Positions 21,759-64,000 are shown, counted from the stretch's first letter. The stretch: DNA of 64,000 nucleotides from Candidatus Kapaibacterium sp. (GCA_015490805.1 WFXC01000014.1:62001-126000); one strand, 5' to 3'. Program-made: numbers and translations. Notes: generated by a model from the sequence alone, not told the origin.

Positions 21759-22802
21759 TTAGAAAGTACTAATCCGCACCGATATCCAATGTACCAAGCC
21801 CAAGTACTTCGTCTGAGCAAAAGCATAGTCAATAGCACCTCGCATATCACCGCCATCATACTTAATCCCCAGACCGGCTGCCAATCCAAACTGATCGTGT
21901 CCAAATCGATACCCACCACGGAGAAAAACCAGATTCTTCCAACTATATTCTGCGCCGACAAGAAACTGCTCTGGCGTGTCAGAAAACGTGATAAATTCCC
22001 CTGCTACCCGAAGAGAATGATCTTCCACTCCGTGCAATGCATCCAAAGAAATACCGCTACGTACATAGAGTGGCAAAGAATAAGGATTAGTCACCATTAC
22101 AGCATCAACGGGTCGATGTTTCAAGCCAGGCACTAAATCTGCTGTGATAACTAACTCTCCTCCTTCATACTGTAATTCAGGTCCCAGATTGCTCACCGCA
22201 AAACCAAATCGGAGATCGTTAAACTTACGCAATTGATACAAGGTTCCAACATCAAAAGCAATCCCATTAGCTTTCATTCCCCCAATAGCTTGAGAGATAT
22301 ATTTCATTGTCACTCCGAAAGAAAAATTCTCACTCAGATATCCTGCTACCGTCGCGTTGACAGCTAAATCACTGACCTCATAAAAAGCACCACTTCCCTT
22401 ATCATCAACCACCGTTGTTACAGGAATTAATCCGCTGGAAAAATTGATAACACTGAGTTCCACTGCATATCCTTCGGCTACCGGCAAAGCGACTCCAATG
22501 AAATTATGCGTATAATCTCCAATCCATCTTGTAGTTGCAAACATTCCCGATATACCTTCAATATCTGCAACACCTGCTGGATTCCAGTGTACTGCCGACA
22601 CTCCAGAACTCACCGCCGAAGCTGCTCCTCCCATACCGACTTCTCGGGCACCAACTCCTATCTTCAAAAACTGTGCACCTGCTCCTCCCACCTTCTTAAA
22701 ATCTCCCGGTCTTGCAGTCGATCCTACTAGTTGAGCACGAAGCGGTCCTATCCCGAAAACAACTAACATAACACTCATCCACAAAGTGACTAATCGCTTC
22801 AT
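21759..22802 (-). CDS. PorV/UPF0164-family outer-membrane protein
   Basis: The 347-residue protein has a signal peptide (MKRLVTLWMSVMLVVFGIG...RAQ) and the family signature GAQFLKIGVGAREVGMGGA followed by VHWNPAGVADIEG, then 12-14 predicted strands ending VHWISVRISTF. PorV is the T9SS outer-membrane shuttle that binds cargo sorting domains; UPF0164 members are close relatives. The ATG at 22802 has GGGGAAAACTTC upstream. Placement after the giant secreted protein suggests a dedicated partner, although a terminator lies between them. Confidence 0.8.
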   Translation of the reverse strand: MKRLVTLWMSVMLVVFGIGPLRAQLVGSTARPGDFKKVGGAGAQFLKIGVGAREVGMGGAASAVSSGVSAVHWNPAGVADIEGISGMFATTRWIGDYTHNFIGVALPVAEGYAVELSVINFSSGLIPVTTVVDDKGSGAFYEVSDLAVNATVAGYLSENFSFGVTMKYISQAIGGMKANGIAFDVGTLYQLRKFNDLRFGFAVSNLGPELQYEGGELVITADLVPGLKHRPVDAVMVTNPYSLPLYVRSGISLDALHGVEDHSLRVAGEFITFSDTPEQFLVGAEYSWKNLVFLRGGYRFGHDQFGLAAGLGIKYDGGDMRGAIDYAFAQTKYLGLVHWISVRISTF

Positions 22803-22849
22803 TGAAGTTTTCCCCACTTTTATCCAACAATTTTTTAATTACGATTGAC

Positions 22850-22885
22850 AAAAAAGGAAAGGACAGTTTATTCTCTGTCCTTTCC
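22850..22885 (-). terminator. Terminator or attenuator between the giant secreted protein and the PorV-like gene
   Basis: Arms GGAAAGGACAG (22856-22866) and CTGTCCTTTCC (22875-22885) with an eight-base loop, followed on the minus strand by a six-residue U-run. It would reduce or stop readthrough into the PorV-like gene. Confidence 0.8.
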
Positions 22886-22900
22886 CTATAAGGGTTACCA

Positions 22901-25900
22901 CTATCGTGCAACGTTTCGGAAGCCACCAGTTATGATAGAAAACTTCACTATCCCAACTTCCCCATTGGGAGTTTCGATAACTGCAAAGAAAGCTTGACTT
23001 TTCGCTTTCTGTCGCCAACTGCTTAAGAGATCCCAGACTGAAAGTGCCTGAATACCAGGTTGTGCTGGATCATCCTCATGTTCGATGGTTCGTACCAGTT
23101 GACCATTCAATGTATAAATTCGGATAGTGCACTTCCGCGGTAGCCGAGTAATATACAGTTTTGGCAAATCTGGTGTTTCCTGTCCCAAATGAGCAACGAT
23201 ATAGGGATTTGGTACCACCATTACACTATCCAAAAGATTTGATGTATAGTTCAGCACCGGCACGGTATCAGGTTGTATTTTAATACGAACCTTAAACCCT
23301 GGTTCAGGCCATCCCAAGGCTCCACCATATACCGGCAAATATACTTTGTCGCCTGGGCGAAAATCTACAGTCGGCATTGTATCTTGTTTGGGGATGAGTC
23401 GCTGATTGGATTTGCGCCCACGTTTATTGGCAAAGTCCAACAAGAATTGAGTACCTGAAGCCAAGAAGACATGGGTAAACTTCACAGTATCTGCACCGTT
23501 CACGGCCGTCAGATAATATCGGCCTTGTTTACCAACTGGCATCCCGTTATCCTTATTTGCTGCTTGGTTCCGACGATCTCGCAATTTATCACCGGACCCC
23601 GGATTTAACCACCCATACGCACTCAAGTTCCACTGTCCCATAGGAACTGCTTCAGGAATGGGCCAATCAGAAGGTCCACCAATCTGAGATCTACTTCCAA
23701 GATCAATCCACACCAATCCGCTCTCCGGATCTGGTACCTGGACCGGTAAACTCATCTCATAATGTGGTATCTCCTTCCCGTACGCCACCAGTACAGAATC
23801 ACCTTCGGGTGTTGGCCGCTTATACTGTGCCACATTCCGCACTTTGACATTAAGATATGGCACTGCAAATGTAACGCTCTTGGTGCGGGTTTCAATTGTA
23901 ATCGTATCAATACCACCCTCGGTAAATTCTAATTCATAGATGGCAGGTCCATTATTGAACCGAACATACCGTACAAGTCGCAGCACGTTCCCATCTGGAC
24001 GATATTCTCCTGCAACTAACTGGATCTTCCGATCCTGTGTTGGCTCAACCCGAACATTTGGCATTTCACCTGGATTCGCGGGTTCGATCCATGGGTCACC
24101 GGGACGCAGCTTGCCACCCCACTGCTGCAAATAATAGTCGAAGACAAACTCCAACGCTCCCATCAACGTTTGGTACGGGCGATTCAGTGGGGAGTTTGTG
24201 GTAAACGTTCCCCCACGTCCTTGTTTTAACTGGCTATCATACTCGCCCATTCCAAATTCATCGGATAGATTCCAGACATAGGCGTGTTCAGCAAAGGCTG
24301 TGATAGCCGAATTTGGCGCTGCTGGATTTGCCGGGAGGCTTGTTTGATAGCGGGCTAATTCCTGACCTGTTTCCACATCTCGTAGAATAATATCACAGGC
24401 GTAAATTCCGTAAACCCCAACGTTGCGCGGATCAGAAACAAAAGCATCGGACAAACTAATCGTTCCTGCTACTGCCGGGCGGAATTCTATCTCAAATTCT
24501 TTGCCTCCATATAACTGGTAGGCACGCTCTTTATTCAGAACCTTGAACTGGAAGTTGTAAAAACCACCCATTGCAGCAGAATCCTCAACGATCACTTCGG
24601 GTCTTACACCGAACCCTACCGGCGGACGCTGCGGAATAGCACGGGTCACGTTCCGCCCAATAATGCCTGTATTAACTAAGCCCCAATAACCTTGCAAAAT
24701 ATCTCCTTCATCGAAAGCCAGCAACCGATAATAATACGGGATGTTGTTGATAAGCTTCTCCGTTGTTCGCACATCCGGCGTTTCAGTTACTACCCCATCC
24801 CGATTATCATCCCCAATATCGGCAAACATTCGTTGTGTTGATTCCTTCATATACTTTAAGATAAACGCCCGAGCCAGTGGATGTTCCCCAATGTCTGGGA
24901 AATACGTAATAATCCTTTGAGTTGCAATGTAGCTGTACACGCTGTCCAAATTATCATTGACCAATTGAGCTTCTCCAACTTTTGCCCGATTGACAATAAT
25001 CGTGTCTACCAAATAGTATTCCACCTCTTCTGGAGACATCTGATCCCATACCCAATTCCACTCCGGATTCTTAAAACGCCGTAAAATTATCCGGAACGGA
25101 TCTCCGGGATCAGCTCCAATAATCTGAATGGAATCTACCATCAAGGGGACATCTCCACATCCCCCTGAAGGAACGACTTGATACTTCGCAGACTTTAAGA
25201 AAGCCGGCGGCATCGACCATCGAGCAATTTCCTTCCATCCAAAAGGTCCTCGCCCTTTCGGATATTCTTTTGTTGGTTGCCGTGTATCTACATCAAAGGT
25301 GTCCAGATCCGTTCGGCGAGCCCGATAGAGGATGTATCCCATAAAGTCCAATCCTGCTTCAACGTCATCGTAGGAAACTTCCGCCGTTGTATCCCAACGC
25401 ACAATGACACCATTATCTAATGGCTCCCACGTGACAAAAGAAGGATCTGGTGGCTGAGGAGTTTTGAAACACTGATCATAAACCTCTTGAGCGAATTTAT
25501 CCTTAGCCACTAAGTTCGCCAAGTCTTCCTGCGTTCCCAAAGGAACTGTCTTGAGTCCTTGTTCGGTAGCTGGCAGTGCCATAATCAGTCCAACCACGAC
25601 GCGAGCAGTATCCCCCGGTCGCATATGAAAAGGACCGGTTGCCATCAGAAAGCGCTTATCCCCAGGTCCTGCATCCCCTTCCTTTACACGTGCAGATACA
25701 AAGTCATAACGTTCTTCATCAGTTGAGGGATCGTTCTGAATCACCCAATTTCGAAATGTCTTCAATCCCAATTCTCCTTCTTTGGGCAAGCGATTTGCTA
25801 ATCGGCTTACAATAAAGCCATTCTCATCCACGACAGGACTCTCCATAAAATCAAAACCGATGTACCCAAACCCTTTGCCTTCTTCACCCAAATCTCCGTT

Positions 25901-26881
25901 GGTCCACTGGTATGCCAAATTCAGAGTTGTATCCCAAAAGTAGAAACTCACTCGATCATTAGCGTATCCCCCCGCTCCTCGGATAGTAAGATCCATATCC
26001 ATTGCTGGAGCCAACCAACAATTATACAGTGTATCATCAGATTGGTTGATCACCTGATAAATAATGAAGATGAAATCAGCATAATCCCCACATCCCCAAC
26101 TATGAATCATTTGCTGAATATCAACACCTAAGGGATATCCCAGTCGTGCTTTCTCTTCTGCTCCACCTTCATAAAACCTCAAATCCGTGTCTTTGTAGAT
26201 ACAAAAGATGTCTTCGTGTGAAATATATACCGGTCCCTTAGGATAAGTTGATAAATTTCGTTCTGAGACCTCATCAACGTAACTGCCATAGTATGGAACA
26301 AAAGCCTCCTGCCCCGAAGAATTATCAATACACTCCCCTGCTTGTAAGGTCGGATGCGTATCCCAAATGGGCCAGTTCTCATAGTCTTCTGGATTTGTAG
26401 GTGTCCCATCCGGTGAAAACTTCTTGGAGGAATATAAACGATATTTTTTCGCCAAGTCCTCTCGAACCTCCGGACCATCTTTGACACTGCCAGGGACCAT
26501 CCAGGAGTTCCCCGAATTGGGGTTGTAAGAAATCACACACAACTTGTTGAAAGCAACCCCTGTATCTGTTTTCACCTTTTTCATCGCAGCAAACCAGACG
26601 CCCCCACCAAAAATATACTGATTATTGCTACCACGCGGCCAATATCCTCCTCCAGAGTTTGCTGCAACATCCAACCCGAAAATACCATAGTTTGTCAACT
26701 TAAATTGAATAGCACTCACCTGATTTTCCCCCAATTCAAACACTGGAATTGGATCCTGCAACGTCCGCTGCGGAATTCGATTCCGCTTACTCCCTTCTTT
26801 AGTCCTTGCTCCCAGATCTCCTATCCCCCACAAAAGAACCATCACAGCTAAAAGCCATAAACCAAGATTTCTTTTCTTCAT
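22901..26881 (-). CDS. Giant secreted surface protein with C-terminal FlgD/T9SS-like domain
   Basis: The 1326-residue protein has a signal peptide (MKKRNLGLWLLAVMVLLWGI). The N-terminal 450 residues are Trp/Tyr/Gly-rich and include the recurring-looking MIHSWGCGDYADFIFIIYQV and LAPAMDMDLTIRGAGGYAND segments, with no enzyme motif. An FN3-like section (WEPLDNGVIVRWDTTAEVSY) follows near residue 520. The C-terminus has VMVVPNPYIVAHLG, LPRKCTIRIYTLNGQLVRT and a W-x-x-x-S strand, like FlgD-Ig/T9SS sorting-type ends. It lies 48 bases after the TonB receptor gene, so co-transcription is likely. Function unknown; export through T9SS is inference. Confidence 0.65.
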   Translation of the reverse strand: MKKRNLGLWLLAVMVLLWGIGDLGARTKEGSKRNRIPQRTLQDPIPVFELGENQVSAIQFKLTNYGIFGLDVAANSGGGYWPRGSNNQYIFGGGVWFAAMKKVKTDTGVAFNKLCVISYNPNSGNSWMVPGSVKDGPEVREDLAKKYRLYSSKKFSPDGTPTNPEDYENWPIWDTHPTLQAGECIDNSSGQEAFVPYYGSYVDEVSERNLSTYPKGPVYISHEDIFCIYKDTDLRFYEGGAEEKARLGYPLGVDIQQMIHSWGCGDYADFIFIIYQVINQSDDTLYNCWLAPAMDMDLTIRGAGGYANDRVSFYFWDTTLNLAYQWTNGDLGEEGKGFGYIGFDFMESPVVDENGFIVSRLANRLPKEGELGLKTFRNWVIQNDPSTDEERYDFVSARVKEGDAGPGDKRFLMATGPFHMRPGDTARVVVGLIMALPATEQGLKTVPLGTQEDLANLVAKDKFAQEVYDQCFKTPQPPDPSFVTWEPLDNGVIVRWDTTAEVSYDDVEAGLDFMGYILYRARRTDLDTFDVDTRQPTKEYPKGRGPFGWKEIARWSMPPAFLKSAKYQVVPSGGCGDVPLMVDSIQIIGADPGDPFRIILRRFKNPEWNWVWDQMSPEEVEYYLVDTIIVNRAKVGEAQLVNDNLDSVYSYIATQRIITYFPDIGEHPLARAFILKYMKESTQRMFADIGDDNRDGVVTETPDVRTTEKLINNIPYYYRLLAFDEGDILQGYWGLVNTGIIGRNVTRAIPQRPPVGFGVRPEVIVEDSAAMGGFYNFQFKVLNKERAYQLYGGKEFEIEFRPAVAGTISLSDAFVSDPRNVGVYGIYACDIILRDVETGQELARYQTSLPANPAAPNSAITAFAEHAYVWNLSDEFGMGEYDSQLKQGRGGTFTTNSPLNRPYQTLMGALEFVFDYYLQQWGGKLRPGDPWIEPANPGEMPNVRVEPTQDRKIQLVAGEYRPDGNVLRLVRYVRFNNGPAIYELEFTEGGIDTITIETRTKSVTFAVPYLNVKVRNVAQYKRPTPEGDSVLVAYGKEIPHYEMSLPVQVPDPESGLVWIDLGSRSQIGGPSDWPIPEAVPMGQWNLSAYGWLNPGSGDKLRDRRNQAANKDNGMPVGKQGRYYLTAVNGADTVKFTHVFLASGTQFLLDFANKRGRKSNQRLIPKQDTMPTVDFRPGDKVYLPVYGGALGWPEPGFKVRIKIQPDTVPVLNYTSNLLDSVMVVPNPYIVAHLGQETPDLPKLYITRLPRKCTIRIYTLNGQLVRTIEHEDDPAQPGIQALSVWDLLSSWRQKAKSQAFFAVIETPNGEVGIVKFSIITGGFRNVAR

Positions 26882-26929
26882 CTTACCCTTTCCCGCTTTT
26901 ATGTGACACATACTATTTCCTAACTTCCG

Positions 26930-29900
26930 TTAAAAGTTCACGGAAAATCCAAAGAAGACTTGGCGTGGAAACTGATAGTTCACGCGACGTGCAATAGCAT
27001 CTTGAACAAACTTCTGATATGCCTGGTACCGCTCTAATTGAGTGGTAATTCCATCATTATTGAAATCAACAGAGGCATTGTAAAGGCGTCTTCCGGCTCG
27101 GTCGTACTGATCAGGTCGGTACGTAATCGAATTATTAGGATCTCCGTCACGGTAATAATTAACTAATGGAAAATCTCCAATCCGGAGGTTAAAATTCTGA
27201 CCATCATAGTCTGGATTACCAGTACGAGCATATACAGCCACCGGCTCTGTACGATTCAGCAGATTAATTACATCAACAAAGAAACTAATTTGAGCATTAT
27301 CAGAGAAGATATCTCCGAATACTTCCTTTAGGCGGAAAGCCCGCTCAATCCGCATATCAACCCGCCAGTAATCCGGCTGTCGTTCACCATTATACTCCCC
27401 AATTTGATTCCCATTTTTATCCAATCGCGTATAAGGCAAGCCACTCTGATAGAATCCTGTGAAATTGATCAAAGTATTCTCTAATAGATAAATCCCCCCA
27501 ATTGAAGGTCCTTCATCATTGCCCCACACGAAGTTGAATACCGCATCGATTCGGTGTGGACGATCATAATCCAATGGATACTCTTGCAACGGAAAGACTC
27601 GCATCCCACCGGTAAAGGGATCTGTTGCTCCAACGATTACTAGAAAGTAATTTGATCCCGTGCTGGAGGCTGTCCCCTTCGCTTGAGAAAGGGAATATCC
27701 TAAGCGGAAACCGAAGTGATCTGACGATGTTGGTTGTTTCCGCAACTCGATCTCGATTCCCCGAGCATTACCATACTCACCAACCGTGACTAAGGAGTAT
27801 GGCGTGGGGACAGCAGGCACATAACTCAATCCTGTCAAGTTCAGCATATCTTTGTAATATGCCCGGATATCCAGTGCGAAGATATCGCTGAGCTGATTGC
27901 TATATCCTACCTCATACATCTTCACCGTTTGCGGCTGAATGTCGGGATCTCCAATAATTTGGTTTCCACGCAATCGATAGGTGTTAAAAGCATCATAGAA
28001 GTCATTGAACGGCGGACGGTCAAAGAGCATCGCATACGACACATTGAAATTCGATCGATCGGTCAGCGGATATGCGATGTACAGACGTGGACTGACCTGT
28101 ACTTTCACTGATGCCTGCTTAAACCAGCCAGCCGTGTCAAATTTCTGATACTGAATCGGAATAAAGGGATTTAGCACATTACGCGCCACTGAGTTCGGAT
28201 CGATAATATCAACTCGCAGTCCGGGAGTAATGATAATGCCACGATATTGTATTTGATCCTGCACATATATAGCTCCTTCTCGCGGGCGGAATGGTCGACT
28301 GGTCAATTCACGCGTTACTACATCATTAGGATCTGCATAGAGGTTTCCTCCCCATTGATCCGTATAGACATCAAAGAAGGGATTACCATCCCACGGCAGT
28401 GAATTATAATGTCGGTGCAGCTCATAAAATCGGGCCTCGAACCCCGTCTTCAATTGGTGCTTAAACTCTCCAGTTTCGAATAAGTTGTAGTAATAACCAT
28501 CGATCTGATAATAGCTCGACCATCGAAAATCGAATGTCCGCGTGTTTCCATGCTCTGCAAAGAAACTTTGCAAAGAGTACGGATTATCTGTGCTGGTCAC
28601 ATCAACCCCGCCTTCGATATAGCCAGTTAGAGGGCTGGGCGCAGGTCGGCTAGCAACTACTAAACCATCTTCTGTGGGAACTGGGGCCAAGTATTGATAG
28701 TAAGGATCCAATATCCTATCTCCCTCCGACAGCCGCGAGCCATCCGGCAGCAGAAATCCCTTATCAACCGGTTCCCAAACGGTAAATCCATTAATAAAAT
28801 CTGGATCCAAAGCTCCATCCGGGATAACCCATTGTTGCGCTTCCATATCCCAATAGATTTTCCGCTTTGAAGCCTCAAAGCGATTGTAGTTCCAAGAAAC
28901 TGTCAGTTCATAAAAACTGGAGGAAGTAAGAGTATGATTGATACGTGCTATCCATTGGGACAAATACTGATTAGCAACAGGACGCTTAGCTGCATATTCT
29001 GGCAGATTCAATTGTACGAAGCCACCACCTTGCTTATAACCCAATCCGGGATCGGTTGCATAAAGCCATCCCCAACTCATTGTTTCCAGCAAAGTGCGTC
29101 CATACTGTCCTCCAACAATCAAGTTAATGTTATCTGTAACACCAAACTTCAGGCGCCCTGTAATATTGCCGACCCATCGGCGGTTATTTGGCAATTGTCC
29201 AATGTTATTGCCCCAGGGATCAATCACCCCTAATCCATTGCCCCGAAACTGCTCATATTCGTGCCAGGCACTCAAATAGAAAGTAACAGGACGACCTAAA
29301 ACATCCTTGGACAGCAACGGACCGCCAATACCGAAATCAATACGGCGGCTACCAGATCCCTGGGCCTGAATGCCATTGTCCGCTTTCCCAAACAGTGCCG
29401 GAATATCCATCCGGTAGCGGAGAAACCCTTCATACCGATCAACACGCCCTGTCTTCGTCACCACATTGACAACACCTCCCAAAGAACCATATTCAGCAGC
29501 AAATCCCCCTTTAATTACCTGGACTTCTTCAGTCCCGAAGTTACTGGTAATAGGAAAATCGTTGAGTCCCACACTCCCAGTACCACCACGAAACTGATCG
29601 CTTAGATCCAACCCATCCACTCGAAACTCTGTATGGGTTGGACGGCCACCTCGAATATAAAATCCCGTCCCGGCTGCCAACACGCCCGGCGTCAAAATGA
29701 CGGTCGCCTGAACTGTCTCCCGCGGAATAGAAGTTAAATCTTCACTGGAAAAATCTGTCATTGCTCCAACGCGAGTATTATCAACTAGGCGTCGTGCAGT
29801 TACCACAACTTCCTTCGTTTGCAGCGCTTTCTCACGGAGTACAAAGTTCAGCTCTTCAATAGCGTCCGCTGAGATCCGGACTGTTTTTCGAGCTTCCTGT

Positions 29901-30142
29901 CGCCCAATCATCCGGGCAACAACCGTATAGGTTCCTGCGGGAATTTTGACAATACGATATGTTCCATCTGCTCGGGTCACGGCTCCCAAGCTGGTCCCTT
30001 CTAGCATTACCGTTGCCCCTGGCAATGGTTTGCCATTCTCATCAGTTACTTTGCCCGTTAAGGTCCCGTAGATTCCTGCCCAAAGGGCTGCGGGCATTAA
30101 GAAACCCAGTCCCACCAGAATCACAAACAATCGTTTCATCAT
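26930..30142 (-). CDS. TonB-dependent receptor with N-terminal carboxypeptidase-regulatory-like domain
   Basis: The 1070-residue protein begins with a signal peptide, then a CarboxypepD_reg-like beta-sandwich (GKVTDENGKPLPGATVMLEG, residues about 30-110), a plug domain (VVVTARR, then RGGRPTHTEFRVDGLDLSD and GGFAAEYGSLGGVVNVVTK) and a 22-strand-like barrel ending in FPRQVFFGFSVNF, whose terminal Phe is typical of outer-membrane proteins. It imports a large substrate or supports surface assembly using TonB energy. No SusD-like gene follows; the next gene is the giant secreted protein instead. Confidence 0.93.
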   Translation of the reverse strand: MMKRLFVILVGLGFLMPAALWAGIYGTLTGKVTDENGKPLPGATVMLEGTSLGAVTRADGTYRIVKIPAGTYTVVARMIGRQEARKTVRISADAIEELNFVLREKALQTKEVVVTARRLVDNTRVGAMTDFSSEDLTSIPRETVQATVILTPGVLAAGTGFYIRGGRPTHTEFRVDGLDLSDQFRGGTGSVGLNDFPITSNFGTEEVQVIKGGFAAEYGSLGGVVNVVTKTGRVDRYEGFLRYRMDIPALFGKADNGIQAQGSGSRRIDFGIGGPLLSKDVLGRPVTFYLSAWHEYEQFRGNGLGVIDPWGNNIGQLPNNRRWVGNITGRLKFGVTDNINLIVGGQYGRTLLETMSWGWLYATDPGLGYKQGGGFVQLNLPEYAAKRPVANQYLSQWIARINHTLTSSSFYELTVSWNYNRFEASKRKIYWDMEAQQWVIPDGALDPDFINGFTVWEPVDKGFLLPDGSRLSEGDRILDPYYQYLAPVPTEDGLVVASRPAPSPLTGYIEGGVDVTSTDNPYSLQSFFAEHGNTRTFDFRWSSYYQIDGYYYNLFETGEFKHQLKTGFEARFYELHRHYNSLPWDGNPFFDVYTDQWGGNLYADPNDVVTRELTSRPFRPREGAIYVQDQIQYRGIIITPGLRVDIIDPNSVARNVLNPFIPIQYQKFDTAGWFKQASVKVQVSPRLYIAYPLTDRSNFNVSYAMLFDRPPFNDFYDAFNTYRLRGNQIIGDPDIQPQTVKMYEVGYSNQLSDIFALDIRAYYKDMLNLTGLSYVPAVPTPYSLVTVGEYGNARGIEIELRKQPTSSDHFGFRLGYSLSQAKGTASSTGSNYFLVIVGATDPFTGGMRVFPLQEYPLDYDRPHRIDAVFNFVWGNDEGPSIGGIYLLENTLINFTGFYQSGLPYTRLDKNGNQIGEYNGERQPDYWRVDMRIERAFRLKEVFGDIFSDNAQISFFVDVINLLNRTEPVAVYARTGNPDYDGQNFNLRIGDFPLVNYYRDGDPNNSITYRPDQYDRAGRRLYNASVDFNNDGITTQLERYQAYQKFVQDAIARRVNYQFPRQVFFGFSVNF

Positions 30143-56560: not shown

Positions 56561-59548
56561 CTACCGTGCAATGACTAACCGCTGGGTAAATTGCTTATCT
56601 CCCAGGCTGACTCGACACACATAAACTCCTTCGGGCAGATTCGCAACATTCAATTTTACGGTTTGGGTACCGCTATGCACGTCATACCGATAGCTTGCGA
56701 TTTTCTTCCCTAACACCGTGATAAGTTCCACCTGTGCCGGCTGATCTTCGCGGGCAGTAATTTCCACAAAGACATACTGTTGTGCTGGCGTCGGATAAAG
56801 AGCAATCCCTTCACCAGACACAACACCGATGCTCATCAACTGAACACTTTTCACCCGCGGATCTGTAATGACTACCGCCTCGGAACTTCCCTTATCAATT
56901 GTCCCCAGAACTTCGCCTGTAACAGGATTCACAACCTTGTAGGACTGGGAAGGATTCTCAATGGCAACCACGACCGGATATTGCACCCCCTGGAACTGAA
57001 CAACCGGACTATTAGCAGCACTTTCCACATAACTACCACTTCCAAAGCGGACATCGAACAATCCTGCCGGAGGAACTGGGGGCAATTCGAACCACTTGCT
57101 GATTCCGCTTTCTCGAGAGAGATATAGCCGACCAACGTGATGGGCTTGATCGCGAATAACTACCACATCGCTGCTTCGAAGGACATCCTGTTTCCGGTCA
57201 CGAACAACACCCGCAGCTTTCATTGCATCTAACCGGAGGTACCCCTCTTCATCGGTCTTCACCCAATATCCCTTTCCGGGTTCCATCACGCTGACTTCCT
57301 TATATCCCTCATCAGTCCTGTACCAATAGACACCCGAAACTCGTGTTGGAATTGGACTCACATCAGTTAACGGATCAAATTGGATGTTATCCACATTAAC
57401 CGGTACAGACAGTCCTCCGATCGTATTCCATCCTTTCCCCAATCGCACTTTATATTGAGTCTCCCGTCCGACACTGGTTACCCGGGCCCCAGCAATAATG
57501 CTATCCAGCAACGATCCATACTTCACAAAGTATCCCCGTCCTACCTGCAGATTGTCTTCCTGATAATAGGCACCTTCAAAGAAGTAACGCGGCTTATCCA
57601 ATGCGTTCGGAAACACCGTTTTCCAGAACGGATCTGCCGGACGAACGGGAAGCGACACCAGATTCCATCCTTTCTGGAGAAAAGTAAACCGCTCTACTCT
57701 TGGGGTCGCATACTCGATAATAAACGAAGTAATGCGCGCATCTCGAATCGTAAAGGAGTAAATGGTTCCCCCGACGTGTGTTGCGTTGCGCATATCGACA
57801 CCAAAAATGGAGCCATTCAAAGTATCACGGAGAAAGAGCCGGGCATTGGGCGGAAAGTCGCTTATATCCCAACTGATCACAATCGGATAATCACTTTGTT
57901 CGGCTTTAAAGCGACAGAGATAAATAATAGTGGTATCTGCGTGGGCATCTCGAATATCACGTGACAGTGAACGTCCGGTCAAATCTCCCATACGAATATC
58001 CGTTTCCGGCGGATACCATCGTGCCTCAAAGGGTACCAATGGATCGGTTTCTGCAACTTCACCAAACAGTGGATCGACACCATCAGAAGCAGATGCTCCA
58101 GTACCAAAGATCAGTGTTTGCTGTTGTCCTTGGGCACTTTCTAAGGTAATGCGAATACCGCGTCCTGTTACGTCTTGCTCTTCAACCAGAATTTCCTCAT
58201 TTGGCTCAATCGGATTCCGCCATATAATGAAGGTTACCCGCAATCGAACAGGACTTACCAGCATTGTGGGGGAATGGAATGTAATATAACCCACATACAC
58301 TCCCGCTGGTCCCGTCGCTCGTGAAGGATCACAAATGATCCGCAAGCGTAGGGTTGGATCACTTTGGGTTGGGTTCCCCAGGGGATCGTTAATATCCCCC
58401 AAAATCCCTTCATCGATATAGTCTACATATCCTTCTCGTGAAGGCTGGGGAATAGGATTTTTCTGCCCAACCGTCTGGAACAACAACCAAGGTTGATCGG
58501 ACTGAACAAATAAATCAGTAATCCGCGACTGATCGATAATATTCACAACATCCAATTCTCGAGTAACTACTTGAGGATCTTGTGAAGCAGAGTCAATTGT
58601 CAACGGATCAATCAATTCCCACAAGGCTTTGTCTGTTCCTGGAACTTCCCGCACCACAGCACTGGGTCCAATATCTGGCTTAAATCCAAGTTGCGGGATA
58701 CGGGTCAAACGCACGTATGCCATTCCCTTCAACGTGGGTTCTGTATTGAAAGTTAAAAGATTCTCATTGGTCAAACCACCGAAAGGCTCTGGTTGCGGCT
58801 GATTTGGTACTGCATCAGGTCCCGTTGTTGGGAATGGATATTGCCATGGATCTCGCTCATTCCATCGAATGGTATCCGCAGCAATGATCAAGGGAGTGTT
58901 GGAAGCTGTTACATCACTAATTGTATTCGTTCCATCATCCTGAATCATCACTTTGAATTTTACAAAAAGCAGGATCGCCCAGTCAAACTGCCCACGTTCT
59001 CCCGGAGTCGGATTTGTAAAGTTGGTTGGAGACAGAGGCTCCGAAGAGGTTCCTACAATCCGAATTCGCCGTCCATTAGGATCACCAGCGTTTCCCGGAA
59101 TACGAGTCTTATAAAGAGGATCTGGCCGATCATCCCACTGAATCTGGAACTGTTTAGCAATAGCGAAAGTATCACTACCCCGTGTCCCAATCATTTGCAC
59201 TCCGACCGCTCTCAGCGCTCGCTTATCATATCGAATACTAAACTGAAAACTCTTGATTGGTTCTGCTGAAGCCAAATTATTCGATAGCCACGGGTTCCGG
59301 ACATAGACTGGAACAATCAAATAATGATCTTCTTTACCCAAAGGCGCAATGGGATACCATATCCGCAATCCCGGATACCGAAATTGCATATTTTGCTGAT
59401 ACTCACCATAAGCTGGTTCTTGCAACACCAAACCAAGTTGCGGCAATGACGGTGGTTCCACCTGTGCTAAAACATTACTTACAGCAAACAAGGTTACAAC
59501 CAGCAATGCACTAAGCTTACGGACAAATGGAGAAAACTGTGCCATCAT
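56561..59548 (-). CDS. Large T9SS cargo with cohesin-like, 'GWNLVSLP' and repeated beta modules
   Basis: The 995-residue protein has a signal peptide, then a cohesin-like region (IKSFQFSIRYDKRALRAVGV). An 'FEARWYPPE' module with YPIVISWDISDFPP follows. The region QKGWNLVSLPVRPADPFW and a second copy GKGWNTIGGLSVPV is followed by GKGYWVKTDEEGYL. Then comes PPVPPAGLFDVRFGSGSYVE. A T9SS type A sorting domain ends it (LYPTPAQQYVFVEI, ELITVLGKKIASY, LPEGVYVCRVSLGDKQFTQR). Signal start chosen at 59548 after AAAGGAAACAGA. Function unknown; a multi-module surface protein or adhesin is the likely kind. Confidence 0.78.
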   Translation of the reverse strand: MMAQFSPFVRKLSALLVVTLFAVSNVLAQVEPPSLPQLGLVLQEPAYGEYQQNMQFRYPGLRIWYPIAPLGKEDHYLIVPVYVRNPWLSNNLASAEPIKSFQFSIRYDKRALRAVGVQMIGTRGSDTFAIAKQFQIQWDDRPDPLYKTRIPGNAGDPNGRRIRIVGTSSEPLSPTNFTNPTPGERGQFDWAILLFVKFKVMIQDDGTNTISDVTASNTPLIIAADTIRWNERDPWQYPFPTTGPDAVPNQPQPEPFGGLTNENLLTFNTEPTLKGMAYVRLTRIPQLGFKPDIGPSAVVREVPGTDKALWELIDPLTIDSASQDPQVVTRELDVVNIIDQSRITDLFVQSDQPWLLFQTVGQKNPIPQPSREGYVDYIDEGILGDINDPLGNPTQSDPTLRLRIICDPSRATGPAGVYVGYITFHSPTMLVSPVRLRVTFIIWRNPIEPNEEILVEEQDVTGRGIRITLESAQGQQQTLIFGTGASASDGVDPLFGEVAETDPLVPFEARWYPPETDIRMGDLTGRSLSRDIRDAHADTTIIYLCRFKAEQSDYPIVISWDISDFPPNARLFLRDTLNGSIFGVDMRNATHVGGTIYSFTIRDARITSFIIEYATPRVERFTFLQKGWNLVSLPVRPADPFWKTVFPNALDKPRYFFEGAYYQEDNLQVGRGYFVKYGSLLDSIIAGARVTSVGRETQYKVRLGKGWNTIGGLSVPVNVDNIQFDPLTDVSPIPTRVSGVYWYRTDEGYKEVSVMEPGKGYWVKTDEEGYLRLDAMKAAGVVRDRKQDVLRSSDVVVIRDQAHHVGRLYLSRESGISKWFELPPVPPAGLFDVRFGSGSYVESAANSPVVQFQGVQYPVVVAIENPSQSYKVVNPVTGEVLGTIDKGSSEAVVITDPRVKSVQLMSIGVVSGEGIALYPTPAQQYVFVEITAREDQPAQVELITVLGKKIASYRYDVHSGTQTVKLNVANLPEGVYVCRVSLGDKQFTQRLVIAR

Positions 59549-59588
59549 TCTGTTTCCTTTAGCTTTTATAAACATCCCTTTTTGTTTT

Positions 59589-60800
59589 CTATTTTTTGTA
59601 TATCCATCTCATATATCGCTCTTGTCCAGAGTAAAGAGCAATAACATACAACCCACGGCTCCAGGTGATTGTCGGAATCCGGTAGTACTGTGTTCTATCG
59701 TATACTGGAAGATCGAAAATTTTTCGTCCCATACTATCGTAAACCTCAATCTTCGTCATCGGTAACTTTGTTCGAACTACCACGCCATCCGTTCCTTCTA
59801 ATACTATCTTCCACCTCTTCACCCGCTCTGCTCCTACACTGCTTATTTGTTGCCATTTAATCATCACACGACCCGTATCAAACCGCGTAACACAATGACA
59901 ATCCGGCAATATCTGGAACATTCCCAGCGCAAAATTCATCGTATCTACTGTGGATGTGCTCAGCACCATTTGCATCGAAAACGATGTCGAGATCCAGTCG
60001 GAATCCCCATAACATCTCCACTCATACCGTTGCCGCTCTGCATTCCATCTCGGCTGATCGCACTGCAAACCATTTGCTGGGAATAATTGTACTCCCCGCA
60101 CATCACCGCTACCACTAAGCTGTCTGAAATACAATCCAACTGTATCAGCCTGATTGCTAAATACATTCTGGATCTTGACCGTTAACTGCAATGTATCCAC
60201 CGGCATTGTCAGCACGGTGTCATTTTGATCAACATTTAGCCGAGCTCGCCTACCAGGTTCATCCTCAACTATTAACACTACAGGATCAACATTCCCGATA
60301 GTACCTGACACATCCACAACAGTATTGTTGTCCACTTTGCCGAAAGTCACCCGGCGCAGTACAACATAACTCGTATCTGGACATCGGGATCCACGCACGT
60401 TTCCTGCAATTGCCACCAGCGCTTCCTGAGGTTTAGCATTGCGCAGAAAACGCTGGACATTACCACCTTCTACAACAACAACCCCATCCTCGACTGTACG
60501 CATTTGAACGAAATCCATCGACTCACCCAGCGTGTTCGTTTTTAACAGCGTTGTCAACGCAAACCTCGATGGATCGTATCCAATCTCGACTGCAAACGAT
60601 AGTAAACTATCTTGCAGGCGAATCGTACCAACGGTTACTACTAAAACCACCCGCTGCACCGAGCCACAAATATCCACAGGCTGACTCCGGATTCCAACCA
60701 CCTGAGCCGCCGTTGGGAAACTCCCATTAATCAAACTTAGGAGCAATCCCAACCACCTCAATTTCTCAAAGAACTCACAACAAAAAGCTTTCCCAGCCAC
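59589..60800 (-). CDS. Secreted protein with cohesin-like domain and T9SS C-terminal domain
   Basis: A GTG start gives a signal peptide ending TAAQ. Residues about 40-150 (RVVLVVTVGTIRLQDSLLSF, AVEIGYDPSRFALTTLLKTN, VAIAGNVRG) follow the cohesin pattern: paired strands, a 'YDPS' turn, and a later V-G-x-A segment. The C-terminus has KLPMTKIEVYDSMGRKIF, TITWSRGLYVIALYSGQERY, the T9SS sorting type. It lies 40 bases after the next gene upstream and 40 bases before the large cargo gene, so the three form one unit. Confidence 0.62.
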   Translation of the reverse strand: MAGKAFCCEFFEKLRWLGLLLSLINGSFPTAAQVVGIRSQPVDICGSVQRVVLVVTVGTIRLQDSLLSFAVEIGYDPSRFALTTLLKTNTLGESMDFVQMRTVEDGVVVVEGGNVQRFLRNAKPQEALVAIAGNVRGSRCPDTSYVVLRRVTFGKVDNNTVVDVSGTIGNVDPVVLIVEDEPGRRARLNVDQNDTVLTMPVDTLQLTVKIQNVFSNQADTVGLYFRQLSGSGDVRGVQLFPANGLQCDQPRWNAERQRYEWRCYGDSDWISTSFSMQMVLSTSTVDTMNFALGMFQILPDCHCVTRFDTGRVMIKWQQISSVGAERVKRWKIVLEGTDGVVVRTKLPMTKIEVYDSMGRKIFDLPVYDRTQYYRIPTITWSRGLYVIALYSGQERYMRWIYKK

Positions 60801-60839
60801 AGGCTTACAACTGCTTTCTCACGTTTTTCTCTATCACAA

Positions 60840-62861
60840 TTACTGCTTTGCTATTTGATAAATGTCAACGACCTGACCATCTCGGACAATCTGCCAGAAA
60901 TAGATACCCGATGCCACGGGATTTCCACTTTCATCTTTACCATTCCAACTCAACTGTTGCATTTGCCCAGCTTCTAAACGACCACTCCACAAGGTTCTGA
61001 CCTTTTGCCCTAATTCGTTGACAACCCGAATTGTGTAATGCCCCGACTCCGGAGTAACATATCTCATCTGAACTTCATTAACAAAGGGATTCGGGAAAAC
61101 CCGAAGCGCGGTCTGCTCCTTACCAGCACTCGCAATCATTAAGATCGCCCCTTTGCGCTGGACATCGTTAAACCGAAGATCTGATATCGTCACAGTGGTA
61201 CCTGCAGGACGAATAATCAAATACCCCACGATTCCGGGAGCAAAATCTCCAGTTCCTGCCACCGCCACACGGTTTCCACTCCATTGCGCGTACAATCTCT
61301 GATCCTGGTTAACAACACCAACAAATTCTTCAATGGTAGCATTGGAAACTGTAAAGGTAAATCCAACAGTAGAATGCACATATCCATTGAGCCGAACCGG
61401 AATGCTCACCATTCCATTGCCTATTGCTTCGGCTGTCCCAAACTCTACGGTTGTCGCTCGCATTAGCGCTGCTGCCTTCCCGTATCCCGGAATGGTATCC
61501 AGCAGCCAGGGCAGATCTGGCACTTTCCCGGCAATGTAGTTCAAAATCAAAGCAGCATCGTATTCATTTGCCTGGAAGTACAAGTTGTTTCGAGAATCAT
61601 CGGCAGGCAGATCATCATAAACCCCAGCGCTTTTTACTGGCCACTCCCGACGATAGACAACCAAGTTTCCATCTTGATCCAGGGAATCGCCGCTATTGTC
61701 CAGCTTCCGGGAAGAATACCAGAAACGCCCATTGTGATTCACATCTGCATGGTACGCCTGTCGGAACATCAAGCTATCTAGGGGTTGATTCTGCGCTACC
61801 GCCCGGAGAATGGTTAACACGTCATTGAGTGTCACATACCGATTCTGTGGCAATCCCGCATGCAATTGTCCGGGAATTTGAGACATATTGGCATCACCAT
61901 CCCCCCATCCAGCGATACCCGGTTTCGGCGTAGCGATAAATACAATAATGTTGTTATTTGCGCGAGACGGGGGCCAGATGCTGGTCAATCGCTGGCTCTT
62001 GATCACACTATCCTGCCCATCATATCCAGGAATGTAAGCACTGGAAGTGCTGTCTTCTATGAAAAGCCCATTCATAAAGGAGGTATTTCCTCCCTGAGTC
62101 AGTGATACTGACTCCAATCCTACCGAAGAACCACTAATCTTTGTAATACCTGGAATGCCACCAATGATTCCATAATGAAACTCAATATTCCCTTGATCGC
62201 CCGTTTTTGGCTCGCCAACAGCCGGTGACTCATAGATTTTCACCTGGAAATTGGCAATACTGGAAGGCTGCGGCGCCGGATTAGCTGCGTTGGGATTGTT
62301 AGGATCAGTCGGGTCAAAGAAATAATTCACGTTCAAATTCTTCCACTGAATGGTCAGCACCCGTGAACCGGGTTGTCCGGAAATGTAATAAGAAATTTCC
62401 GACGGCATAAATCCAATGTCGCTGGGCGTACGATAATAATGATCTCCCCAGAACGGAGCAATTACCCCATTAGGAGAGTTCTTGCTGAACATATTGTTGG
62501 GATCATTCGTCCCAAAAACGGCTGGCAAATCTCCGACCTGAACAAAACCATTAACATTGACCTGAATTCGGGTATATCGCTGTCCATCAAATTCAAATTC
62601 AAACGGCAACTCAATGCCGAATTCCTGTGTCACAGGATTATAATAAAATCCATCGTCCGGATCCAGAATACTCGAATTCAAAGGATCCCGAAAATCCTCA
62701 GCCGGGAGCACCACTCGATCTGTTGGTAATTCCTGATAGGGTGCATTCTCAATCGTATTGGTAAAGTAAGAATAAATCTGTGCAAAAGTGTTTGCTACAG
62801 GCAACAAAAGAAGCCCTACAGCAAATGCTGCCACAGAAAAAATCCGTTGCTGCAATTTCAT
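60840..62861 (-). CDS. Secreted protein with dockerin-like and cohesin-like segments and T9SS C-terminal domain
   Basis: The 673-residue protein has a clear signal peptide (MKLQQRIFSVAAFAVGLLLL) and GGGAAGAG before the ATG. The N-terminal 300 residues resemble surface globular domains: ELPFEFEFDGQRYTRIQVNV, NGFVQVGDLP and GVIAPFWGDHY. Next is a dockerin-like stretch, GDANMS...YVTLNDVLTILRAVAQN and HADVNHNGRF with YDAALILNYIAGKV, the F-hand pattern 'D-x-N-x-x-G...D-a-x-x-I-L-x-Y-I-a-G' with an insertion. A cohesin-like segment GFTFTVSNATIEEFVGVVNQ follows. The C-terminus (FPNPFVNEVQMRYVTPESGH, GIYFWQIVRDGQVVDIYQI) is FlgD/T9SS sorting type. Confidence 0.72.
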   Translation of the reverse strand: MKLQQRIFSVAAFAVGLLLLPVANTFAQIYSYFTNTIENAPYQELPTDRVVLPAEDFRDPLNSSILDPDDGFYYNPVTQEFGIELPFEFEFDGQRYTRIQVNVNGFVQVGDLPAVFGTNDPNNMFSKNSPNGVIAPFWGDHYYRTPSDIGFMPSEISYYISGQPGSRVLTIQWKNLNVNYFFDPTDPNNPNAANPAPQPSSIANFQVKIYESPAVGEPKTGDQGNIEFHYGIIGGIPGITKISGSSVGLESVSLTQGGNTSFMNGLFIEDSTSSAYIPGYDGQDSVIKSQRLTSIWPPSRANNNIIVFIATPKPGIAGWGDGDANMSQIPGQLHAGLPQNRYVTLNDVLTILRAVAQNQPLDSLMFRQAYHADVNHNGRFWYSSRKLDNSGDSLDQDGNLVVYRREWPVKSAGVYDDLPADDSRNNLYFQANEYDAALILNYIAGKVPDLPWLLDTIPGYGKAAALMRATTVEFGTAEAIGNGMVSIPVRLNGYVHSTVGFTFTVSNATIEEFVGVVNQDQRLYAQWSGNRVAVAGTGDFAPGIVGYLIIRPAGTTVTISDLRFNDVQRKGAILMIASAGKEQTALRVFPNPFVNEVQMRYVTPESGHYTIRVVNELGQKVRTLWSGRLEAGQMQQLSWNGKDESGNPVASGIYFWQIVRDGQVVDIYQIAKQ

Positions 62862-62915
62862 AACTCTTCCCTTTATGTTATTCCAACATTTTAACTGTCA
62901 CAGTTTTATCTGTTC

Positions 62916-62952
62916 TCCGGGAACTCCTTTTTATACCAAAGGAGCTCCCGGA
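62916..62952 (-). terminator. Large hairpin between two cargo genes
   Basis: Nearly perfect 15-bp arms TCCGGGAACTCCTTT (62916-62930) and AAAGGAGCTCCCGGA (62938-62952) with one A/C mismatch around a seven-base loop. No U-run follows on the minus strand, so readthrough to the next cargo gene is possible. It may stabilise processed 3' or 5' ends. Confidence 0.55.
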
Positions 62953-62968
62953 AACATTCTGCCGTACT

Positions 62969-64000
62969 TTACCGCACGACGGTCACCGGATAGAGCAACA
63001 CCTGTCCATCCAGCTCAATACGATAGAAGTACAATCCTGCTGCCACACGTTGCCCGGCCATATTCACAACATTCCACTCATATCGATAAGTACCAGCAGC
63101 AACTTTTGCCTGCCCAAGCACCTGCACGGTTTGTCCCATTACATCCACCACTTCAACTTTCAGATGAGTTGGATGATCCGTTGCCACAACTACCGTCGCT
63201 TGATCTTCTATCGGATTAGGATAGATACTAACCTGAACTCCGGATAGCTGATCGCCCTCTGCCACACTGACAGCAGTTGCAGAATCCTTCACAATTTCGA
63301 ACCCGGTAATCTTCGTATCGTAGACCGTGATTGTAATCTGCCCATTATCATCTTGAATATCAACGCCAGCCGATGCCCGATAATGACCGGTACGCATATT
63401 GACGTAAAACACATTCCCCTTAGAATTTGCATCTCGCATATACCAATCAATTCCGGGGAACGGCGATGGTACCGTATTCTTATCCCAGCTAATCGTCACT
63501 GGATAGAGTGCTCCCGATTGATCCCCATACCCTACCTGGAATCCTGCTTCCAGCGGGCGATCAGAGGCCTTCGGAACGATATTCCGCAGGATTCCTGTCC
63601 GTTCCGGAATCATCCACCGAGCATCGAAAATGTTTGCTGGCGGAATGGGCGGAATTTCAAATTCACAGTAATTGGAATCCAGCTTCCCAATACCACCCAG
63701 ATCTGCATCTTTTCCTGTTGTCGCGTTGATAGCTGTTCCCCATTCCAGAATCTGATAAGCACCTGCTGCATTTTCAATCCGAATCATGCTGACAAAATCA
63801 GTTTCTTCGGAAACCGCAATCCGATAGGTCAGAGTTGCTTGCTCACCCTCTTTATCCACCGCGACAATTTCAATTGTTACCGTTCCATCCGGATTACGCG
63901 GTGTATTGTTATCCACCGTTCCTGAGACCGTTACTACAACAGTATCAATTCCACTACCTGTGACAGTAGAAGGATCAACGGTAAATCCAGACGGTTGCGT
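62969..64000 (-). CDS. Partial T9SS cargo, C-terminal part (5' end beyond the window)
   Basis: The frame is open to the right edge of the window, giving 343 residues; the start lies outside. A GTG at 63916 is only an internal codon. Residues near the middle carry EIPPIPPANIFDARWMIPER, YPVTISWDKNTVPSPFPGID and TVYDTKITGFEIVK, the same kind of module as in the 995-residue cargo. The C-terminus is a T9SS type A sorting domain: VSIYPNPIEDQATVVVATDH, VVDVMGQTVQVLG, AGLYFYRIELDGQVLLYPVT. Function unknown. Confidence 0.8.
   Translation of the reverse strand, partial: TQPSGFTVDPSTVTGSGIDTVVVTVSGTVDNNTPRNPDGTVTIEIVAVDKEGEQATLTYRIAVSEETDFVSMIRIENAAGAYQILEWGTAINATTGKDADLGGIGKLDSNYCEFEIPPIPPANIFDARWMIPERTGILRNIVPKASDRPLEAGFQVGYGDQSGALYPVTISWDKNTVPSPFPGIDWYMRDANSKGNVFYVNMRTGHYRASAGVDIQDDNGQITITVYDTKITGFEIVKDSATAVSVAEGDQLSGVQVSIYPNPIEDQATVVVATDHPTHLKVEVVDVMGQTVQVLGQAKVAAGTYRYEWNVVNMAGQRVAAGLYFYRIELDGQVLLYPVTVVR

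Follow-up and report, generated by a model that had tools for sequence, protein, structure and literature searches.

A conserved Kapabacteria gene cluster for type IX-exported proteins with cohesin-like and dockerin-like modules: a candidate surface-assembly system

Results

Organization of the locus

The DNA analysed here, a stretch of 64,000 nucleotides (GCA_015490805.1, WFXC01000014.1:62001-126000; hereafter the window, whose coordinates are used throughout), is part of a Kapabacteria metagenome-assembled genome (MAG) of 2.67 Mb, and its closest named relatives are Candidatus Kapaibacterium MAGs with about 95% protein identity. At one end of the window five successive open reading frames (ORFs), P2 to P6, encode proteins with tails of the type IX secretion system (T9SS). 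A prediction made from the sequence alone (the original prediction) had described five consecutive minus-strand genes here, with cohesin-like segments in three of the encoded proteins and a dockerin-like pattern in one, and had read them as a possible surface-assembly system. The ORFs were found where it had placed them, as were the peptides it quoted.

All genes of the cluster, and all features within them, lie on the minus strand, in the co-directional order TPR protein, P6, P5, P4, P3 and the small tail protein P2. P6 is cut by the window edge; its C-terminal part occupies 62969-64000, and the full protein of 2226 amino acids (aa) extends on the contig to the equivalent of about 69649. According to Pfam it contains a beta-helix (Chlam_PMP repeats), He_PIG Ig domains and a T9SS tail. 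P5 (60840-62861, 673 aa) is composed of a signal peptide, a beta-rich N-terminal domain with weak NIDO-like matches, a dockerin-like double F-hand, a cohesin-like domain and a T9SS tail. P4 (59589-60800, 403 aa) has a signal peptide, two cohesin-like domains and a weak T9SS tail. In P3 (56561-59575, 1004 aa) an N-terminal cohesin-like domain with insertions is followed by more beta domains and a strong T9SS tail, and P2 (55674-56462, 262 aa) is a small exported protein with a sub-threshold tail; an ORF of similar size and exported type lies downstream of P3 in some of the relatives inspected. The gene upstream of P6 encodes a protein of 246 aa that has TPR repeats (PF09976) and a transmembrane segment, and there is a four-base overlap between its 3' end and the start of P6. 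P3 and the C-terminal part of P6 have a conserved motif in common, ELPPxPPxxxFDxRF/RW, which precedes their C-terminal domains and suggests, as a sequence motif, a shared unnamed surface domain.

Conservation of the cluster

Synteny was analysed by blastp against the ORFs of 20-kb regions from relatives (33 loci). In 29 of them P6, P5, P4 and P3 are collinear and co-directional, and 26 of these also contain the TPR gene; the operon thus occurs in about 30 relatives. The incomplete loci mostly reach contig or region edges; one of them (L076) contains P4, and its P3 is probably masked by a longer antisense ORF. Intergenic gaps in the relatives are mostly tens of bases long, and several loci have overlaps. 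Outside the genus, the relatives share about 27-50% identity with the window proteins. P4 evolves fast, and beyond the genus it was identified by position.

The dockerin-like region of P5 was found in 71 of the 294 genomes of the class, nearly always as a single copy. It is spread over the sampled families of the window's own order except f6, is absent in one f3 genome, and occurs also in f9 and f15; in a phylum-wide sample of 296 genomes every match fell in the same class. Judged from these comparisons the cluster is real, old and operon-like, and belongs to the lineage core in Kapabacteria and two related families.

Export by the type IX secretion system

The N-termini of all five proteins look, by inspection, like signal peptides ending in ..AQ. 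The tails of P3 and P6 score above the PF18962 cut-off, that of P5 (60852-61100) reaches 24.9 bits with TIGR04183 (cut-off 23), whereas the tails of P2 and P4 remain below threshold (16.9 and 16.4 bits). PF18962 is matched by 15 of 32 P4 relatives, with a best E-value of 3.2e-7. The genome encodes SprA (906 bits) and PorV-family proteins, which shows that it has a T9SS, and contains 61 PF18962-like matches at E ≤ 0.1. Taken together, the tails of P3, P5 and P6, the matches of the P4 relatives, SprA and PorV, and the genome-wide matches make T9SS export of the cluster proteins, as originally predicted, well supported at the level of sequence. One PorV-family protein (PF19572) is encoded in the window itself, where it adjoins a 1336-aa protein without a Pfam match and a TonB-dependent receptor (21759-30142).

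Cohesin-like domains in P3, P4 and P5

The window sequences of P3, P4 and P5 did not match Pfam Cohesin (PF00963) up to E 10, and an NCBIfam and Pfam scan of the window proteins yielded neither cohesin nor dockerin. The cohesin signal appears at the family level only, where it exceeds what is expected by chance. Seven of 32 P4 relatives match PF00963 (best 2.3e-12), and a profile of the first P4 domain (60246-60701, about aa 34-185) matched solved cohesins in the PDB (6kg8, E 2.3e-6). Weak Pfam Cohesin matches were obtained for four of 31 P3 relatives, the best at 0.02. Of the profile searches that the original prediction had proposed, with PF00963 and PF00404, both were negative on the window sequences, and PF00963 was positive at the family level, in the P4 relatives.

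As a more sensitive comparison, a cohesin profile was built from domains that Pfam recognises as cohesins in other proteins of this order and compared with the cluster alignments using hhalign. It matched P3 at about aa 88-235 (94.6%, E 7e-8 on the domain alignment; the domain, at 58856-59326, spans about aa 84-240), the first and second domains of P4 (90% and 81%; the second at 59841-60245, about aa 186-320), and P5 at about aa 473-591 (88%; 61122-61454, domain about aa 470-580). Two negative controls, P6 with its Ig-like domains (2259 profile columns) and the dockerin region of P5, each gave 0.2%. PDB profile searches with the P5 cohesin alignment and the P3 domain alignment gave no credible match. 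When the domains were compared directly, P4 with P3 was the one convincing pair (81%); the pairs with P5 were not, so that the assignment in P5 is based on the cohesin profile and on Foldseek. Family homology of the P3 and P5 domains is thus seen only in profile-profile comparison (88-95%), whereas for P4 Pfam and the PDB profile search also detect it.

AlphaFold models of P4 and P5 were computed from four-sequence alignments and have a mean predicted local distance difference test (pLDDT) score of 49-50, with local values of 65-83 in the cohesin part of P5 and mostly 50-76 in the first P4 domain; P3 was not among the models. Foldseek against the PDB returned cohesins first with both of these low-confidence models. 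The best match of P4 was the type II cohesin dyad 3l8q (5e-6), which fits the two domains of P4 and is evidence for the second of them, and that of P5 the non-cellulosomal cohesin 2xdh of Archaeoglobus (6e-4). A single match to such models carries limited weight; it is the consistency across matches that counts. The data support cohesin-family folds in the three proteins for which cohesin-like segments had been proposed, one in P3, two in P4 and one in P5, from family profiles and, for P4 and P5, also from Foldseek.

A dockerin-like double F-hand in P5

The dockerin-like region of P5 (61506-61907, aa 319-452) consists of two loops with their helices and ends with LPW, which is invariant among the P5 relatives. 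Loop 1 reads D323-x-N325-x-S327, followed by an insert, VT-x-N-D347 and a helix; loop 2 reads D373-V-N375-H-N377-G378, followed by an insert, D435 and a helix. In the P5 alignment each loop is split between a D-x-N-x-N-G half and a V-T-x-x-D half with the helix, and the inserts, both before loop position 8, are about 13-20 residues long in the first F-hand and about 12-75 in the second one. D323, D347, D373, G378 and D435 are invariant in all 28 P5 relatives, and loop positions 3 and 5 are occupied by oxygen-bearing residues throughout, such that two F-hands with ligand residues at loop positions 1, 3, 5 and 12 were found in 28 of 28.

To score the motif, a matrix was trained on the recognised dockerins of the order, with insertions allowed, and shuffled sequences were scored with identical optimisation. 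Ten diverse P5 relatives had a mean two-F-hand score of 30.9, compared with 13.3 ± 1.8 (maximum 18.9) in column shuffles, none of 200 of which reached it; for the window P5 alone, one of 300 residue shuffles scored as well. The dockerin-like pattern noted in the original prediction is therefore beyond chance, and its sequence identifies the region as a dockerin-like double F-hand; whether the label dockerin applies depends on binding. A PDB profile search with the alignment of the region gave no dockerin match.

An alternative is that both kinds of module have a spacer role, the cohesin-like domains as Ig-like stalks and the dockerin-like block as a hinge stiffened by calcium near the membrane-anchored C-terminus, in proteins that are each held by their own T9SS tail and do not pair. 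In this order, a cohesin-like domain commonly lies just before the T9SS tail of large proteins that are otherwise unrelated, and PF00963 is found in 54 of the 61 genomes. Within P5, the dockerin-like block is conserved best and is followed by the invariant LPW, as might be expected of a packed interdomain joint, and its loop insertions set it apart from canonical dockerins. A mere spacer role is less easily reconciled with the preservation of all calcium positions, with closest structural matches that are cohesins and not generic Ig folds, and with the retention of dockerin-like and cohesin-like modules together in one operon. We regard this explanation as the main competitor of pairing, though a somewhat doubtful one.

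The order dockerin, cohesin, tail recurs in a 2042-aa protein of the same genome that has a Pfam-level dockerin, and in a 496-aa protein the dockerin is followed by a domain that is weakly cohesin-like. This recurrence would fit an intramolecular lock, in which the P5 dockerin packs on its own adjacent cohesin as a folding or calcium-sensing device. Neither covariation nor a confident structure speaks for such a lock, and the P5 cohesin is poorly conserved relative to the P5 dockerin, which makes it improbable.

Dockerin-type tags and related modules elsewhere

In the window's genome, six or more proteins or fragments of exported type carry a dockerin-type tag of 56 aa at the C-terminus (..DRTxIRNNTFxVTQVP* or ..NNRGRRSLVP*): four longer proteins, L003, L005, L007 and L006 (C4, C16, C32, C31), and the fragments L002 and L004 (C41, C23). 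Pfam detects no T9SS tail in the four longer proteins, which include an M12B metalloprotease and a giant CARDB/beta-helix protein. The tags may mark cargo for cohesins or be a new type of sorting signal at the C-terminus. Genomes of family f11 of the class (G070, G097, G193, G205, G210 and others) have roughly 17-33 matches to the tag profile each, far above the order of the window, which could reflect a dockerin-rich surface or a cellulosome-like system. Family f6 (G168, G172, G183; L084, L086, L089, L114, L115, L118) has T9SS-tailed chains with cohesin-dockerin-cohesin at the Pfam level.

The T9SS-anchored cohesins of P4, P3 and a 1550-aa protein (C39) might accordingly be receptors for dockerin-tagged exports, in a cellulosome-like display of the protease and beta-helix giants with P5 as one client or adaptor. 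The tagged proteins of this genome, of which the four that can be judged have no Pfam T9SS tail, would suit such a role, and Candidatus Stygibacter (Cloacimonadota) offers a parallel in a reported T9SS-tailed scaffoldin with dockerin-tagged peptidases (PMC8542988). Set against this, the tag might serve as a secretion signal in its own right, and many cluster-bearing genomes have no tags, which excludes the tags as the conserved partner of P4 and P3; we rejected on this ground the idea that holding tagged proteins is the conserved function of P4 and P3. Overall a receptor role has little probability.

Outside the cluster, the gene for LptD (PF19838; 50716-53181) is found a few genes downstream.

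Discussion

A possible calcium-dependent surface complex

The cluster probably builds a surface complex of several large surface-displayed proteins. Our preferred reading, to which we assign a probability of about 45%, is that this complex is calcium-dependent and held together by dockerin-cohesin pairing within the cluster. In this view P3 to P6 reach the outer surface by way of Sec and the type IX system, with P6 as a giant beta-helix protein, P5 as an adaptor that carries a single dockerin-like and a single cohesin-like module, P4 as a two-cohesin protein and P3 as a cohesin-bearing surface protein. The P5 dockerin would be the plug, the socket would be a cohesin that belongs to P4, to P3 or to another copy of P5, the contacts would be calcium-dependent, and the outcome would be an adhesive or structural coat with the type IX tails as anchors. 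From the presence of the modules we infer assembly through them, and with it calcium binding, pairing, the choice of partners and a coat rather than an enzyme complex.

Six genomes of the genera g3 and g12 (G017, G077, G091, G123, G133, G173) bear on the choice of partner. They keep the P5 dockerin module and showed no further dockerin with PF00404 or the tag profile, and where their loci were read P4 and P3 are kept beside P5. If the cluster cohesins bind a dockerin in these genomes, it is expected to be that of P5.

Several observations weigh against pairing within the cluster. PF00404 matched none of the 28 P5 relatives at E ≤ 0.1, which we attribute to the insertions that interrupt both F-hand loops, and hhalign of the P5 dockerin with other Kapabacterial dockerins gave weak matches confined to the second calcium loop (E 0.009-0.016). 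The AlphaFold models are of low confidence overall (the mean pLDDT given above) and low in the dockerin region. Mean identity between diverged pairs is about 42% for the P5 dockerin, 25% for the P5 cohesin, 20% and 14% for the two P4 domains and 32% for the P3 cohesin; conservation this uneven would be unlike a tightly co-evolving, conserved P5-P4 interface. Every protein has its own T9SS tail (weak in P4), and thus none strictly requires a partner to stay on the cell. Finally, it is common in this order for a cohesin-like domain to precede the T9SS tail directly, also in unrelated proteins.

A more far-reaching version of the preferred reading appears rather unlikely to hold in full: that P5, by means of a divergent dockerin whose calcium loops are split, docks on T9SS-anchored cohesins and holds a beta-helix coat onto which C-terminally tagged proteins (the protease and the beta-helix giants) can be loaded, in a Gram-negative system that is core to Kapabacteria.

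If pairing occurs, the cluster would represent a calcium-dependent route by which T9SS bacteria assemble multi-protein structures on their surface, and its dockerin would be of a divergent type that current models miss. The operon is compact, single-copy and conserved, and every candidate partner is known, which makes pairing directly testable with a few purified domains.

Comparison with known systems

Cohesin-dockerin pairing is best known from the enzyme complexes of Clostridia, and modules outside cellulosomes are also known. The present operon would allow a direct test of whether the many non-cellulosomal copies act similarly to the cellulosomal pairs. Non-cellulosomal cohesins of Archaeoglobus fulgidus (2xdh) and of Clostridium perfringens GH84C (2jh2/2w1n), which show the cohesin fold without a cellulosome, are among the closest Foldseek matches of the P5 and P4 models. 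The modules described here differ from these in belonging to T9SS-tailed proteins of one conserved operon, in a dockerin with insertions in both loops and in having no enzyme attached. Pfam detected no glycoside hydrolase or carbohydrate-binding module (CBM) among the cluster proteins, in line with the original prediction as regards glycoside hydrolases, and for this reason the cluster is not a cellulosome.

OlpA and SdbA are clostridial anchoring scaffoldins that are anchored by S-layer homology (SLH) domains. The layout of P4, cohesin-cohesin-surface anchor, is analogous, and P4 may act like anchored cohesins of this type with a T9SS tail in place of the cell-wall anchor. Unlike in OlpA and SdbA, the anchor would be a (weak) T9SS tail and not SLH, and the cluster has no known enzyme cargo. 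P6 shares the Chlam_PMP repeats of a right-handed beta-helix with the polymorphic membrane proteins of Chlamydia, but is exported by the T9SS and not as an autotransporter.

The cellulosome-like complex of Candidatus Stygibacter has a large scaffoldin with tandem cohesins, CBMs and a T9SS-type C-terminal domain, together with dockerin-tagged glycoside hydrolases and peptidases (PMC8542988). Both organisms have a cohesin protein with a T9SS-type C-terminal domain alongside dockerin proteins; here, however, the cohesin proteins are small and accompanied by a beta-helix giant, in a cluster without CBM or glycoside hydrolase. A literature search that included Kapabacteria and type IX secretion found no paper on this operon. 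Non-cellulosomal modules and, from Candidatus Stygibacter, their combination with the T9SS are thus known, whereas the occurrence of such modules on a conserved T9SS operon is new.

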